Shown: positions 20,585 to 60,102 of the stretch, one piece after another
Layout: every line of letters begins with the position of its first letter
How positions within the stretch are numbered: position 1 is the first letter of the stretch
From: Anoxynatronum buryatiense
Lineage (GTDB): Bacteria > Bacillota > Clostridia > Peptostreptococcales > Tindalliaceae
Reading direction: 5' to 3'
DNA: 64,000 nucleotides
Assembly (NCBI RefSeq): GCF_900182905.1
Contig: NZ_FXUF01000003.1
Span: 186,001 to 250,000 of the forward strand
Program-made: the position numbers and the translations under genes
Notes under the pieces: generated by a model
What the model saw: the letters and a program-made list of their open reading frames with translations, nothing else
What the model was told of the DNA's origin: nothing
Databases searched by the model: none

Positions 20585-20678
20585 AAAAAACTCCTGTAAA
20601 TGCCGGTGAAATAATTTGACGGCATTTACAGGAGTCATCATCTGCAGAGCAGCTTTTCGGGTGAACTCCATCACCTTT
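20585..20678 (-). ncRNA. Fluoride riboswitch (crcB motif) with terminator
   Basis: Minus-strand RNA beginning AGGTGATGGAGTTCACC, then an A-rich joint, a short GCTGC...GCAG helix and TGATGACTCCTG. This matches the fluoride (crcB) aptamer in order and key bases (GRUGGAGUUCNCC ... UGAUGACUCCU). The expression platform is a perfect 16-bp hairpin, ACTCCTGTAAATGCCG (minus-strand 20635-20620) with CGGCATTTACAGGAGT (20605-20590), then TTTTTT. The ACTCCTG arm also belongs to the aptamer, so fluoride binding and termination exclude each other. It opens the leader of the antiporter gene. Confidence 0.9.
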
Positions 20679-20696
20679 AGAATTTTATATGCACGC

Positions 20697-54493: not shown

Positions 54494-55303
54494 TCACCAT
54501 TGATGTTGATGAGCTTTGAGAACAACCGCTTTCACTTTTTCAAGTGATGCAACAGTTTCTGAGGAAATAGAATTTTTTGACAGAAGCGTCAGAAATTCCA
54601 CATTTCCTTTTGGGCCACGAATAGGGGAAAAATCAAGTTCTTCAACAGAAAATCCCACTGATGTGGCAAAGCTGGCAACCTCTGTGATGACATGCTCATG
54701 GATGATGGCATCACGCACGACACCGTTTTTACCCACTTGACTTTTCCCTGCTTCAAACTGTGGCTTAATGAGTGCGACAACCACACCGCCAGACTTTAAC
54801 AAATGATATGCTACAGGCAATACCAGTTTGAGCGATATGAATGAAACATCAATGGAAATCATATCCATGGCTTCATTTAAATCTTCGGGTGTGACATAAC
54901 GAATATTAGTGCGCTCCATGACCACCACTCGCGGGTCATTACGTAGGTTCCAGTCCAACTGACCGTAACCCACATCGACGGCATAAACTCTTGAAGCACC
55001 ATGTTGAAGCATACAGTCAGTAAATCCTCCGGTGGAGGCACCGATGTCCATGCATACCTTTTCCTTCAGGGATAGGTGAAATTGTTCAATAGCCTTTTCC
55101 AGTTTTAAGCCACCTCTGCTGACAAAAGCAAGAGGCTTTCCTTTAATTTCAATGATTGCATCTAAATGCACCTGGGTGCCGGCTTTGTCAATCCGTTCTC
55201 TGTCAGCAAGAATCTGCCCAGCCATAATGGCGGCCCGAGCTTTCTCTCTGCTGGAGAACAGACCTTTCTCAACCAACAACAGGTCAATTCGCTGTTTTGC
55301 CAT
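54494..55303 (-). CDS. tlyA: TlyA-family rRNA methyltransferase (S4 + FtsJ domains)
   Basis: 269 residues. An N-terminal S4 RNA-binding domain (about 3-62, RIDLLLVEKGLFSSREKARAAI in two parts) is joined to an FtsJ-like SAM methyltransferase with MDIGASTGGFTDCMLQHGA (about 80-98), AVDVGYGQLDW, and the catalytic-type residues later (ISIDVSFISLK). Known relatives 2'-O-methylate 16S and 23S rRNA; some are annotated as hemolysins. The start overlaps the dxs end by 20 bases, showing coupling. Confidence 0.93.
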   Translation of the reverse strand: MAKQRIDLLLVEKGLFSSREKARAAIMAGQILADRERIDKAGTQVHLDAIIEIKGKPLAFVSRGGLKLEKAIEQFHLSLKEKVCMDIGASTGGFTDCMLQHGASRVYAVDVGYGQLDWNLRNDPRVVVMERTNIRYVTPEDLNEAMDMISIDVSFISLKLVLPVAYHLLKSGGVVVALIKPQFEAGKSQVGKNGVVRDAIIHEHVITEVASFATSVGFSVEELDFSPIRGPKGNVEFLTLLSKNSISSETVASLEKVKAVVLKAHQHQW

Positions 55304-57221
55304 AGGATCGTTTCTCCGTTAAATTCATTGAAACCACTTTGTGTGGTTGTCGGGATGTTTGGGAACTATCTTTATGAATGCGCTGTACCAATTTTTCAAC
55401 AGTTAATTCAAGATGCTGATATAAATGGTTCATATCTCCCTGGGGCGTGAAGTTGTCTGGAAGCCCCAGAGTGTGAACCGGGCAAGTGAGTTGATTTTCC
55501 TGATAGAGTGCCTGCACTTGTCGTCCTAAACCGCCAATCTGCTGGTTCTCCTCAAGTACGTATACCTGCCGAACTTGTTGGCCATGGCGAAGCAGTAAAG
55601 TGTGATCCAGCGGTTTGACAAACCGGGGATTAATGATTTGACCAAAGAGTCCGTCTTTTGCTGTTTGATTAAGTACTTCCAAAGCTCTGTGAACCATGGT
55701 GCCCAGCGCTATGATCAGATAATCATTACCATCCACCTGCAGCACCGAGCCTTTGCCATATTGAATGGGTTCTCTCTTGACAGTAAGCGCGTGCGCTTCT
55801 CCTCTTGGATAACGAATCAAAACAGGACTATTCAGTTCAAGGGAGTACCGCATCATATCAGAGAGTTCTGTACCGTCTGCTGGTGATAGAATTGTCAAAT
55901 TGGGAATGGCAGAAAGACATGAAATATCAAAAACGCCGTGATGAGTTTCGCCGTCATTTCCCACCAGCCCTGCACGATCTACCAAGAAAGTGACGGGTAA
56001 ATTCTGCAAGCAAACATCATGAATCAATTGATCATAGCCTCTTTGTAAAAAAGAAGAATAAACTGCAAAAAATGGTCGCAAGCCTGCTGCTGCCTGTCCT
56101 GCAGCAAATGTTACCGCATGTTGTTCTGCGATGCCAACATCAAAAAAACGGTGGGGAAAGCGGTGCTCAAAATTGGTTAAGCCAGTTCCGTCAGGCATGG
56201 CGGCGGTAATGGCAACCACTCTCGGGTCACTCTCTGCCAGTGACTCCAAAGTGCTTCCTGCAATTTGCGAAAACGAGGGAGTCCGCGTCAATAAAGGTGT
56301 TTTACCTGTTTCAGGGTCAAAAGTGCCAATGCCATGAAACTTGGCAGGAAACTTTTCAGCAGGTCCATAACCCTTTCCTTTAACAGTCATCACATGAACC
56401 AGTTTAGGACCTCCAATGCGCCGGGCGAGACGAAAAGCTTCCTTCAGATCATGTATCTGATGTCCATCAATCGGGCCTATATAAGTAAAGCCTAATTCTT
56501 CGAAAAGGACTCCTGGAACAAAGAAGTATTTAATGGAATCTTTTGCTTTTTCTGCAGTTCGATAGAAAGATTTTCCTATGGCAAAGTGGTCCATTAAATG
56601 TTCAAGGTCTTCTTTTAGTCTGGAATAAACCGGCATTGTACGAATGCGAGTGAGATAATTGGATAAACCACCCACATTTCTGGCTATCGACATTTTGTTA
56701 TCGTTGAGTACAACAGTCAGATCCAAATGGCTCTGACCAGCGTGGTTCAATGCTTCAAAGGCCATTCCACCTGTCATGGCACCGTCACCTATGACTGCAG
56801 CGATCTGATGTTTTTCGCCTTTTAAGTCACGGGCTGTAGCCATGCCTAAAGCAGCAGATATAGAGGTGGCACTGTGGCCGGTGTTAAAATGGTCATGAAG
56901 ACTTTCATGTCTTTTGGGGAATCCACTTATGCCACCATATTGTCTCAATGTATGAAACGTTTGTAATCGTCCTGTCAGCAACTTATGAACATAAGTCTGA
57001 TGTCCAACATCCCAAATGATTTTATCCTGAAAGGTATCATAGACCTGATGCAGTGCCAGTGTTAACTCAACAACACCCAGGTTGGAAGCTAAGTGGCCAC
57101 CAGTTTTAGAAACGCTGGTAACCAGAAATTGTCTAATTTCTTGAGCCAGCATTGTCAGTTCTTTTTCGTTAAGTGCCTGGAGATCCTTTGGTGACTGAAT
57201 CTGTTCCAGTAAAGAAGTCAT
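55284..57221 (-). CDS. dxs: 1-deoxy-D-xylulose-5-phosphate synthase
   Basis: 645 residues, the thiamine-diphosphate enzyme that opens the MEP isoprenoid pathway by joining pyruvate and glyceraldehyde 3-phosphate. SNLGVVELTLALH and DVGHQTYVHKLLTGR are near the N-terminus; the ThDP motif starts at GDGAMTGGMAFEALNHAG (about 146-163) and ends in NDNKMSI; the transketolase half has DVGIAEQHAVTFAAG. It has its own promoter, after a terminator that ends the oapA message. ispA lies upstream in the same cluster. The start has GAGAGGA. Confidence 0.96.
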   Translation of the reverse strand: MTSLLEQIQSPKDLQALNEKELTMLAQEIRQFLVTSVSKTGGHLASNLGVVELTLALHQVYDTFQDKIIWDVGHQTYVHKLLTGRLQTFHTLRQYGGISGFPKRHESLHDHFNTGHSATSISAALGMATARDLKGEKHQIAAVIGDGAMTGGMAFEALNHAGQSHLDLTVVLNDNKMSIARNVGGLSNYLTRIRTMPVYSRLKEDLEHLMDHFAIGKSFYRTAEKAKDSIKYFFVPGVLFEELGFTYIGPIDGHQIHDLKEAFRLARRIGGPKLVHVMTVKGKGYGPAEKFPAKFHGIGTFDPETGKTPLLTRTPSFSQIAGSTLESLAESDPRVVAITAAMPDGTGLTNFEHRFPHRFFDVGIAEQHAVTFAAGQAAAGLRPFFAVYSSFLQRGYDQLIHDVCLQNLPVTFLVDRAGLVGNDGETHHGVFDISCLSAIPNLTILSPADGTELSDMMRYSLELNSPVLIRYPRGEAHALTVKREPIQYGKGSVLQVDGNDYLIIALGTMVHRALEVLNQTAKDGLFGQIINPRFVKPLDHTLLLRHGQQVRQVYVLEENQQIGGLGRQVQALYQENQLTCPVHTLGLPDNFTPQGDMNHLYQHLELTVEKLVQRIHKDSSQTSRQPHKVVSMNLTEKRSYGKTAN

Positions 57222-57387: not shown

Positions 57388-57984
57388 TTAATTTGTCGAA
57401 CGTGTGAATACCCATGAAATTTTTGCAACCGCATGAACAATTTCATGGGATTTTTCAAGGGCAATATTTTTTCCAATGGCTTTACCTCCCACAGTTAAGG
57501 ACGCAACAAAGCCTCCCAGAACCAGGGTCACCAGTAATTGATGAAGCATCGGCATTTGCGGCACAATTTTAAGCAAAATGGTGGCAGCTGCGACACCGCT
57601 GATGATACCGCAAATGTCGCCAACGACGTCATTACAGATATTGGAGACTACCCCCGCATTTTTGAGCAGACGGATGGCGGCCCGGGCAGAAGGTACTTTA
57701 TCTGCGGCCATGGCGTGAAAGGGCTTTTCTGAAGCGACGGCCACAGCAATTCCCACCATATCAAAAAAAACACCTAACAAGATAATGCTGATGAGAATGA
57801 AAAAAGAAGCAACAATCTCAGCACGAATCAGTAACTGTTCCGATAGATAGTTGAATAACGCAGCCAAGAAAAAAGTCCATATCGAAACGGTAACAACCCA
57901 TTTGATATTATATTTTTTGAACAGTTCTTCAATATGTCCCTGCTCACCACGCCCGTTTCGGGGTGGTTTTTTAAATTTTGCCAC
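57388..57984 (-). CDS. oapA: OLE-associated membrane protein OapA
   Basis: 198 residues with four likely membrane helices (about 28-48, 58-85, 120-145, 153-170) and a basic N-terminus (KFKKPPRNGRGEQGH). The conserved DxxxD is seen as NDVVGDICG (D119 and D123), the motif reported for OapA, which carries OLE RNA to the membrane and is linked to magnesium and alcohol tolerance. Its place directly downstream of the OLE RNA and upstream of dxs is the known OLE neighbourhood. Similar proteins are loosely annotated as CorB-like magnesium transporters. GTG 57984 is chosen because GGAGG lies eight bases before it. Confidence 0.85.
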   Translation of the reverse strand: MAKFKKPPRNGRGEQGHIEELFKKYNIKWVVTVSIWTFFLAALFNYLSEQLLIRAEIVASFFILISIILLGVFFDMVGIAVAVASEKPFHAMAADKVPSARAAIRLLKNAGVVSNICNDVVGDICGIISGVAAATILLKIVPQMPMLHQLLVTLVLGGFVASLTVGGKAIGKNIALEKSHEIVHAVAKISWVFTRSTN

Positions 57985-58039
57985 ATTCCGTTCCTCCAGA
58001 TTCAAAATAACAGAGCCAGTTTACCGGGACCTAAAGTCA

Positions 58040-58073
58040 AAAAGGAAAACTGATAGCATGACTCAGCTATCAG
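58040..58073 (-). terminator. Terminator at the 3' end of OLE RNA
   Basis: Minus strand CTGATAGC (58073-58066), eight-base loop, GCTATCAG (58057-58050), then TTTTCCTTTT. It lies about 55 bases before oapA, so oapA would need read-through or a second start. Confidence 0.8.
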
Positions 58074-58662
58074 CAGAACCCACAGTGGTAACCCGTCAGG
58101 TAAATTTTACGGCTTAGGTCCAGTAAGTTTTCCCAGACTTCTACTGCGTGTCGCCAGCACAGCGGTTTCCCTTTAAAGATGTCCCTGCCTTGTCGCCAAT
58201 AGCAGAACTGGATTGCCACTTAGTCCGCACTGTAATCCCTGAAAGGTCTCTTGCGAACAGTCTAGGAGATTTCCTCTACAATACTGCCGGTTCTTAGCCT
58301 CTTTTGCAGCATAAGTTTCAGGTGGCAATAATCCCCTTTACCGGGCCCTGGCTCAGAGAACCTGATCCACCTATCTGCTTACCCCACTCAAGGCAGGCTA
58401 CGCTGTGCGCTACGCTGTCTCTCAAGACGCCTGCACAGGTTTCTACCTTCTCAGTCTGCACTGAATAAGGCCTCCACGAAGCGAGGGTCAACGCCCGCAT
58501 GCCATTGCGGATCGCCCCCATCTTCTTACTCCCAGAAAGGACCCACGACTGGGCGTCGCAAGCCGAAACCAGGAACTTCATCGATGTGCCCTTTGACGGA
58601 TTTTTAGGCCCGCCCTCAGCAACCGGCAGAACTGACTAGAATACTGCACCACTGCAGTTTCT
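58040..58662 (-). ncRNA. ole: OLE RNA (ornate large extremophilic RNA)
   Basis: A non-coding stretch of about 620 bases, more GC-rich than its surroundings and full of paired segments (for example ACTGCA/TGCAGT at the 5' end). It has its own promoter and an intrinsic terminator. No frame in it has a ribosome site or recognisable protein. Position and length match OLE RNA (about 610 bases), which in Bacillus halodurans and many anaerobes or alkaliphiles lies in the ispA-dxs isoprenoid cluster next to the oapA membrane-protein gene; both neighbours are here. OLE RNA forms a membrane ribonucleoprotein complex with OapA and partners. Assignment rests on context, length and structure, not on a covariance-model search. 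Confidence 0.87.
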
Positions 58663-58668
58663 GACTAT

Positions 58669-58697
58669 ATTATACCATAATGCAGGCGTATCATCAA
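58669..58697 (-). promoter_or_regulatory. Promoter of OLE RNA
   Basis: TTGATG (58692-58697), 17-base spacer, TATAAT (58669-58674) on the minus strand, overlapping the stop codon of the DUF212 gene. The predicted first base is near 58662. Confidence 0.75.
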
Positions 58698-59146
58698 ACC
58701 AGCCACCATGCGATGGCAATTCCAAGTACAGCACCAGCAAACACTTCATAGGGTGTATGTCCCACTAATTCTTTCAATCGATTTTCAGTGAGCTTTTTAT
58801 CTTTTCGATGATGATGAAAATCTTCAATGATTTGATTTAGAATCACTGCCTGGCGTCCAACAGCATATCGAACACCTGCTGCATCGTACATCACTACTAA
58901 AGCAAATACCAGTGACAGCGCAAAGATCGATGAATCCCATCCATGTAGTTTTCCAACACCAGTTGCAAGACTCATGACAAACGACGAATGTGAACTTGGC
59001 ATACCTCCAGAACCGACAAGGCGCAATAAGTTTAAATGCTTATCCATTAAAAGAGTGGTTATGACTTTTAAGACCTGGGCAATAAACCAGGCAATAATAG
59101 TGATCCAGAGAATGCGATTATTTCCGATTCCTGCCAGAATGTCCAT
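58694..59146 (-). CDS. Divergent PAP2 family membrane protein (DUF212)
   Basis: 150 residues with about four to five membrane helices. The phosphatase-like signature is GSGGMPSSHSSFVMSLATG (about 44-62), followed by YDAAGVRYAVGRQA and LKELVGHTPYEVFAGAVLG. These echo the acid-phosphatase (PAP2) motifs in changed form. The family often lies beside ispA and dxs in Clostridia, hinting at a role with prenyl diphosphates (inferred). ATG 59146 follows GGGGTGA; a longer frame has no ribosome site. Confidence 0.88.
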   Translation of the reverse strand: MDILAGIGNNRILWITIIAWFIAQVLKVITTLLMDKHLNLLRLVGSGGMPSSHSSFVMSLATGVGKLHGWDSSIFALSLVFALVVMYDAAGVRYAVGRQAVILNQIIEDFHHHRKDKKLTENRLKELVGHTPYEVFAGAVLGIAIAWWLV

Positions 59147-59214: not shown

Positions 59215-60102
59215 TCAAGAGCGACGATTAACAAGATAACGGGCCAGTGACTGTAGGAATTCTGATGATTCTCCATATGACTTAAAAGTTGCAAGCGTTT
59301 TATTTGTCAAAGATTTCACCTGTTTTCGAGAATCGTCAATGCCATAAAGAGAAGGAAAGGTGGCTTTATTATTGCGCAAGTCGCTGCCAATTGGCTTTCC
59401 CAATTCTTCAGCACTGCCATCCAAATCAAGCAGATCATCTTGAATTTGAAATGCCATACCCAAAGCGTGACCTGCTGCTGCTAATTCTGACGCAGTCTGT
59501 TCATCGGCTTCGGCCGCATAGGCACCTGCTGTGAGAGAGGCTGACAACAAGGCACCTGTTTTTTGTTGATGAATGTAGGTCAGTGTCTCGGCAGTTACCG
59601 ATTTTCCTTCATTTATCAGATCGGCGGTTTGGCCGCCAATCATTCCTCTTACTCCCGCAGCATTGCCGATACACTTCATGGCGCGAATAAACGAATCGGG
59701 ATTTTTCTTCAGGAGTAAATCCTGCAGCATTATTTCATAAGCAAGATTCAACAAACCATCTCCCGCCAGGATGGCAACCCCATCACCAAATATTTTATGA
59801 TTAGTAGGCTTTCCCCGCCTGAAATCATCATTATCCATGGCAGGTAAGTCATCATGAATCAATGAATACGTATGTATCATTTCAAGTGCGCAGGCGTACG
59901 GCATCGCTTTCTCCACTGTCCCATTCAGCATTTCAGTAACGGCCAGTGTCAACACCGGGCGAAGTCTCTTTCCGCCGGCAAATAAACTGTACTGCATGGC
60001 TTCAACAACCAAATGATTTCTTTCATCACCAATATTCGTATATTCACGCAATGAGTGGTTTATCATTTCGATGTAATGATTCAGCTGATCGCGCCATTCC
60101 AT
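59215..60102 (-). CDS. ispA: Farnesyl/geranyl diphosphate synthase
   Basis: 295 residues, a trans-prenyltransferase that builds C10-C15 diphosphates from IPP and DMAPP. The first aspartate-rich motif is DDLPAMDNDDFRRG (about 85-98), the second DDLLDLDGS (about 222-230), with the GGKRLRPVL (about 43-51) IPP-binding region before. One base is shared with the xseB stop codon. Part of the xseA-xseB-ispA run. Confidence 0.95.
   Translation of the reverse strand: MEWRDQLNHYIEMINHSLREYTNIGDERNHLVVEAMQYSLFAGGKRLRPVLTLAVTEMLNGTVEKAMPYACALEMIHTYSLIHDDLPAMDNDDFRRGKPTNHKIFGDGVAILAGDGLLNLAYEIMLQDLLLKKNPDSFIRAMKCIGNAAGVRGMIGGQTADLINEGKSVTAETLTYIHQQKTGALLSASLTAGAYAAEADEQTASELAAAGHALGMAFQIQDDLLDLDGSAEELGKPIGSDLRNNKATFPSLYGIDDSRKQVKSLTNKTLATFKSYGESSEFLQSLARYLVNRRS

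Follow-up and report, generated by a model that had tools for sequence, protein, structure and literature searches.

A near-invariant predicted terminator stem between the OLE RNA gene and oapA in Anoxynatronum buryatiense and other Clostridia

In the 64,000-nucleotide stretch of Anoxynatronum buryatiense DNA analysed here (the window), the OLE RNA gene is followed by a predicted intrinsic terminator whose stem sequence is kept in several clostridial orders, across at least seven groups of family level. The OLE/OapA system at this locus is complete and of the standard type, and OLE itself is already known. The part worth following is the sequence-constrained stem; the OLE literature searched does not describe it, and the terminator may be mentioned in older papers (2006, 2011, 2012, 2018).

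Results

Few conserved bacterial RNAs of unknown biochemical function are as large as OLE. An earlier note on this DNA had placed an OLE gene between ispA/DUF212 and oapA, ahead of dxs, and had proposed a covariance-model search of the minus strand. That search returned a full-length match to Rfam OLE (RF01071, model positions 1–616) at 58668–58069 on the minus strand, scoring 470.1 bits (E = 7.9e-135) against a gathering score of 50. The gene order was also as claimed: xseA-xseB-ispA-DUF212-OLE-oapA-dxs, then a TlyA-type methyltransferase gene, with the ispA-type polyprenyl synthase gene at 59215..60102, the gene for DUF212 (divergent PAP2) immediately before OLE at 58694..59146, oapA at 57388..57984 and dxs downstream of it at 55284..57221, all on the minus strand. 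The transcript is predicted to run from about 58662 to about 58040, or roughly 620 nt from promoter to T-tract; OLE RNAs are characterised by abundance, stability and a length of about 600–630 nt. Its terminal helix is formed by CAGUGGU (58648..58654) and ACCACUG (58083..58089), both on the minus strand, and in relatives both partners of this helix change, for example AGUAGUGGC/GCCACUACU. An open reading frame of 87 codons (58581–58318) lies inside the region and could point to a translated protein instead of a structured RNA, but the covariance match of 470 bits over the full length refutes the protein-coding reading, the compensated helices and conserved single-stranded OLE blocks argue against it as well, and we give it practically no probability. 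A second Rfam scan of the OLE region alone produced no further match of weight.

A search of the whole genome (4.16 Mb, 99.8% complete) found a single OLE copy, that of the window. Elsewhere, one genome (G370) carried three OLE genes (L205, L206, L207), the copies being 73–82% identical, with one linked to oapA and at least one standing alone with its own terminator; another (G326) had two (L190, L191), a pair that could be a strain mixture. Sub-threshold OLE matches of 22–23 bits, spanning only 70 bases, occurred at L213 (G387) and L366 (G547) and are possibly deletion remnants. The window also contains a fluoride riboswitch (RF01734, 44.7 bits) at 20622–20684 (minus strand), directly upstream of a gene for a cation/proton-antiporter-like membrane protein (20555–19365).

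What defines OapA is that it binds OLE RNA and takes the RNA to the membrane. The window's oapA encodes 198 amino acids with a pI of 9.7, four hydrophobic segments and one DxxxD motif at residues 119–123 (D119 and D123), which bears out the previous identification of a four-helix membrane protein with DxxxD as OapA. Its start is most likely the GTG at 57984, which lies 55 nt past the T-tract described below and behind a GGAGG ribosome binding site (57993..57997, minus strand) 8 nt before the GTG. OapA homologues encoded downstream of OLE elsewhere were about 38–81% identical to that of the window; the nearest loci were in MAGs listed as Clostridiaceae (80–81%) and in Tindallia (74–75%). The window's OapA resembles them in being encoded immediately downstream, in its four hydrophobic helices, in its basic pI and in the DxxxD motif, which was present in 187 of 189 homologues encoded behind OLE. 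There was no notable difference between them; the window's gene begins with GTG.

Homologues of OapB and OapC are also encoded in the genome. The OapB homologue is a 98-amino-acid KOW protein between map and infA that matches PDB 7k9b, 'OLE-associated protein B', with E = 6e-11; the OapC homologue is a 96-amino-acid L7Ae protein between rpoC and rpsL that matches YbxF (E = 3e-11) and is separate from the genome's other L7Ae protein, YlxQ, in the nusA operon. We found no MpfA-type CNNM transporter in the genome, where the only CNNM match was OapA itself. This resemblance to the CNNM/CorC/MpfA magnesium transporters is a weak match to the CNNM membrane domain (PF01595, E = 7e-4); OapA differs from them in falling below the family cut-off and in being without the cytoplasmic CBS part. 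OLE and MpfA are anticorrelated and OapA is structurally related to MpfA (PMC11332333), so a CNNM match limited to OapA is to be expected. With OapB and OapC homologues present and MpfA absent, the gene set for an OLE RNP of the H. halodurans type is complete in this genome. The OLE of the window is likewise similar to those of Halalkalibacterium halodurans and Clostridium acetobutylicum in matching the full model, in its gene neighbours, in its own (here predicted) promoter, in having oapA directly downstream, and in the OapB and OapC homologues of its genome.

The promoter-like site TTGATG-17 nt-TATAAT, previously proposed at the DUF212 stop codon, is present at 58669..58697 (minus strand); a TG precedes its −10, and its −35 overlaps the DUF212 TGA stop. 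Consensus scans alone were barely above chance, both for promoters (8 found, 4.1 expected) and for terminators (3 found, 2.5 expected), and we therefore gathered 193 distinct OLE loci for comparison, mostly from Clostridia and 18 from Bacilli, through an OapA search and class-wide and order-wide genome searches. Sigma-70 type promoters with at least 9 of 12 matches, within 70 nt before OLE, were found at 150 of 190 loci, compared with 39.6 in shuffled sequences and 7 of 184 in segments 300 nt further up. The position class of the window's site is thus kept, the −10 usually lying 7–21 nt ahead of the conserved GUGGUGCAG block in the loci compared. B. halodurans ole is likewise reported to have a promoter of its own (PMC9723947).

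Downstream of OLE, the hairpin GCTGATAGC-tgagtcat-GCTATCAGT (58049..58074, minus strand; core CTGATAG/CTATCAG) is followed directly by the T-tract TTTTCCTTTTT (58039..58049, minus strand). It has the form CTGATAGC-loop-GCTATCAG-TTTT and a folding energy of −16.3 kcal/mol; a stable hairpin with a T-tract directly after it is a predicted intrinsic terminator, and this was the sole strand-correct candidate in the OLE-oapA interval. The earlier note had located a terminator here, 55 nt before oapA, and comparison across loci upholds its presence, while the sequence conservation of the stem had been missed. The hairpin sequence occurs once in the 4.16 Mb genome, and a stock terminator used genome-wide was rejected on that ground. 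Matches to it away from OLE within the order were sporadic, and mostly about as rare as those of a reversed-pattern control.

Strong intergenic terminators followed OLE at 60 of the 193 loci, compared with 1.7 in shuffles, and 47 of these 60 were of the CTGATAG type. CTGATAG-loop-CTATCAG followed by T's was present at every unique locus of the window's family, at 15/15 loci of another family in the same order, at 4/4 loci of a family in another order, at 5/6 loci of one more family, as well as in many Tissierellales, and in nearly all cases it started 44–52 nt past the GACCUAAG block with which the OLE 3' end is marked. Across 54 loci, most hairpins lay within 41–52 nt of that block, and the stem paired in every one; the 5' arm was exact in 44, and the variants in the remaining ten kept the pairing, including a two-sided change, CTGATGG/CCATCAG. 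Two genomes scored as OLE-lacking (G302 and G327; L286 and L287) had an OLE 3' end and hairpin cut by the contig end, so the absence of OLE there is an assembly artefact.

Among 23 non-redundant loci (OLE sequences less than 85% identical to one another), which had been picked by the stem pattern, the 14 stem bases were 96% identical, compared with a mean of 74% for OLE. The loop, the 13 nt upstream and the 20 nt downstream were 31–32% identical in the same loci. A pattern-free scan of the OLE-oapA intergenic region in groups f1, f5, f25 and f75 recovered the same hairpin and no other terminator type; the hairpin was therefore not created by the search pattern. As a control within the same genomes, at least six of the seven stem bases were common to 99% of OLE terminator pairs, compared with 22–25% for the terminators of tmRNA and 6S. 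Because the stem was kept where the tmRNA and 6S terminators had diverged, and because it is not a stock terminator, a constraint on pairing alone does not explain it.

The arrangement differed in Bacilli. In a class-wide sample of 67 OLE loci, oapA lay behind OLE in 60, and an intergenic terminator was found in 1 of these 60. This agrees with the operon view in the literature, and makes the window's arrangement lineage-specific, that is, clostridial. In contrast, where dxs took the place of oapA (L308, L331, L352, L354, L356, L359, L360), terminators of the ordinary intrinsic kind were found immediately behind OLE at 5 of 7 loci (Fisher p = 1e-5 v 1/60); a terminator can therefore be where OLE ends. 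A TACATA motif often stood shortly after the terminal OLE helix in Bacilli, at the position of the hairpin in Clostridia (L044, L051, L068, L074, L077).

A group of Bacillaceae carried a different terminator-like hairpin, GCCGTTATCAC-N4-GTG(T/C)TAGCGGC followed by T's (arms GCCGTTATCAC/GTGTTAGCGGC), inside oapA codons 16–27 (L044, L051, L052, L057, L061, L068, L074–L079, L082–L085, L300, L301, L334, L336). It was found at 17 of 18 loci collected by OapA similarity and at 8 of 67 class-wide, four of those eight with a weaker T-tract; confined as it is to this group, it was rejected as a general feature of Bacilli. Synonymous identity was 76% over the hairpin codons and 41% in the rest of oapA, the highest of 186 windows, and the two synonymous sites that varied most inside the hairpin were in the loop and at the internal mismatch. 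The sequence was the only such copy in those genomes. This hairpin may end OLE transcripts, or may couple oapA transcription to ribosome entry.

Between the terminator and oapA, promoters were found at 3 of 53 loci where 2.8 were expected. This is chance level, and an oapA promoter of its own after the terminator was accordingly rejected. With no sigma-70 type promoter signal above chance there, oapA would depend on read-through by polymerases that started at the OLE promoter or in the operon upstream, in agreement with the dosage idea of the earlier note.

Discussion

Comparison across loci supports well a model in which OLE is a separate transcript, as had been suggested; promoters precede OLE at most loci, and the predicted terminator is present at every locus of the window's family. 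We consider it highly likely that the window holds an intact OLE gene and oapA, with OLE mostly ending at the conserved hairpin, oapA expressed by read-through and the RNP assembled. RNA polymerase would start about 7 nt past TATAAT, near 58662, and would mostly stop at the hairpin and T-tract (58074–58039). The resulting RNA of about 620 nt would fit the B. halodurans OLE RNA of about 630 nt (PMC9723947), which we counted in favour of this model. The oapA mRNA would come from the smaller share of polymerases that read through, or from read-through of transcripts begun further up in the isoprenoid operon, and OLE would be in excess of OapA, not cut out of a long mRNA. OLE, OapA, OapB and OapC would then assemble a membrane RNP, as has been shown for H. 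halodurans. Since the hairpin after OLE is nearly unchanged among many relatives, OLE RNA and OapA are probably produced separately.

Published work on B. halodurans describes ole as having a promoter of its own inside a large operon, and presumes that the RNA is processed (PMC9723947); the window differs in having a sequence-conserved terminator between OLE and oapA. If processing prevailed here, OLE would mainly be part of a long xseB-ispA-DUF212-OLE-oapA-dxs transcript and be cut out of it, and the hairpin would be no terminator, instead protecting the 3' end or serving as an RNP-binding element. The hairpin keeps a near-fixed distance from the OLE 3' helix, which would also fit an RNA element forming part of OLE. 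We nevertheless regard this as unlikely, given the T-tract directly after the hairpin, the promoters ahead of OLE in most loci, and the ordinary terminators of those Bacilli in which dxs directly follows OLE. It is similarly improbable that the hairpin is an ordinary terminator whose sequence is free of selection and has simply been inherited from a common ancestor. Its core does recur now and then in terminators away from OLE (L288, L289, L297), but a stem at 96% identity beside loop and flanks at about 31%, over OLE sequences 65–85% alike, is not what descent alone would leave, and the diverged tmRNA and 6S terminators of the same genomes speak against it too.

The palindrome could also act as DNA, with a repressor or other protein binding CTGATAGC-N-GCTATCAG as an operator and controlling oapA. 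The arms are exactly palindromic, conserved in sequence and single-copy in the genome. However, the loop length is free (about 4 to 10 nt), unlike that of a typical dimer operator, and G-U wobbles keep the RNA pairing while breaking the DNA palindrome (CTGATGG/CTATCAG, CTGATAG/CTGTCAG). A T-tract is present, and one site per genome would make for little of a regulon; we judge an operator very improbable. The locus resembles leader attenuators in having a terminator between the promoter and oapA, with oapA needing read-through, but differs in that OLE offers no consistent anti-terminator partner and in that the 'leader' is a functional RNA. An attenuator with its anti-terminator strand in OLE was rejected, as no complementary segment of at least 7 pairs recurs across loci. 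The invariant CUAGUCAG at the OLE 5' end could pair with the 5' arm of the hairpin with one base bulged; since genomes that lack the hairpin have it just as often, it is no evidence for an anti-terminator.

As the stem is constrained in sequence beyond its pairing, we infer that the stem has a recogniser, for which candidates would be a protein or RNA that governs read-through, or a partner in the RNP. We tentatively propose, at somewhat less than an even chance, that in much of the Clostridia the stem of the OLE 3' hairpin (CUGAUAGC/GCUAUCAG) is selected for recognition as well as termination. The hairpin would then set the ratio of OLE to OapA, either as a terminator under regulation or as a 3' element of the OLE RNP not listed until now, and some Bacillaceae would exert the same control via a different terminator hidden in the first oapA codons. 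How the ends of OLE are made, and the dose of OLE relative to OapA, have so far only been presumed, and a stem unchanged beside a randomised loop and flanks points to a recognition event that has apparently not been looked for before.
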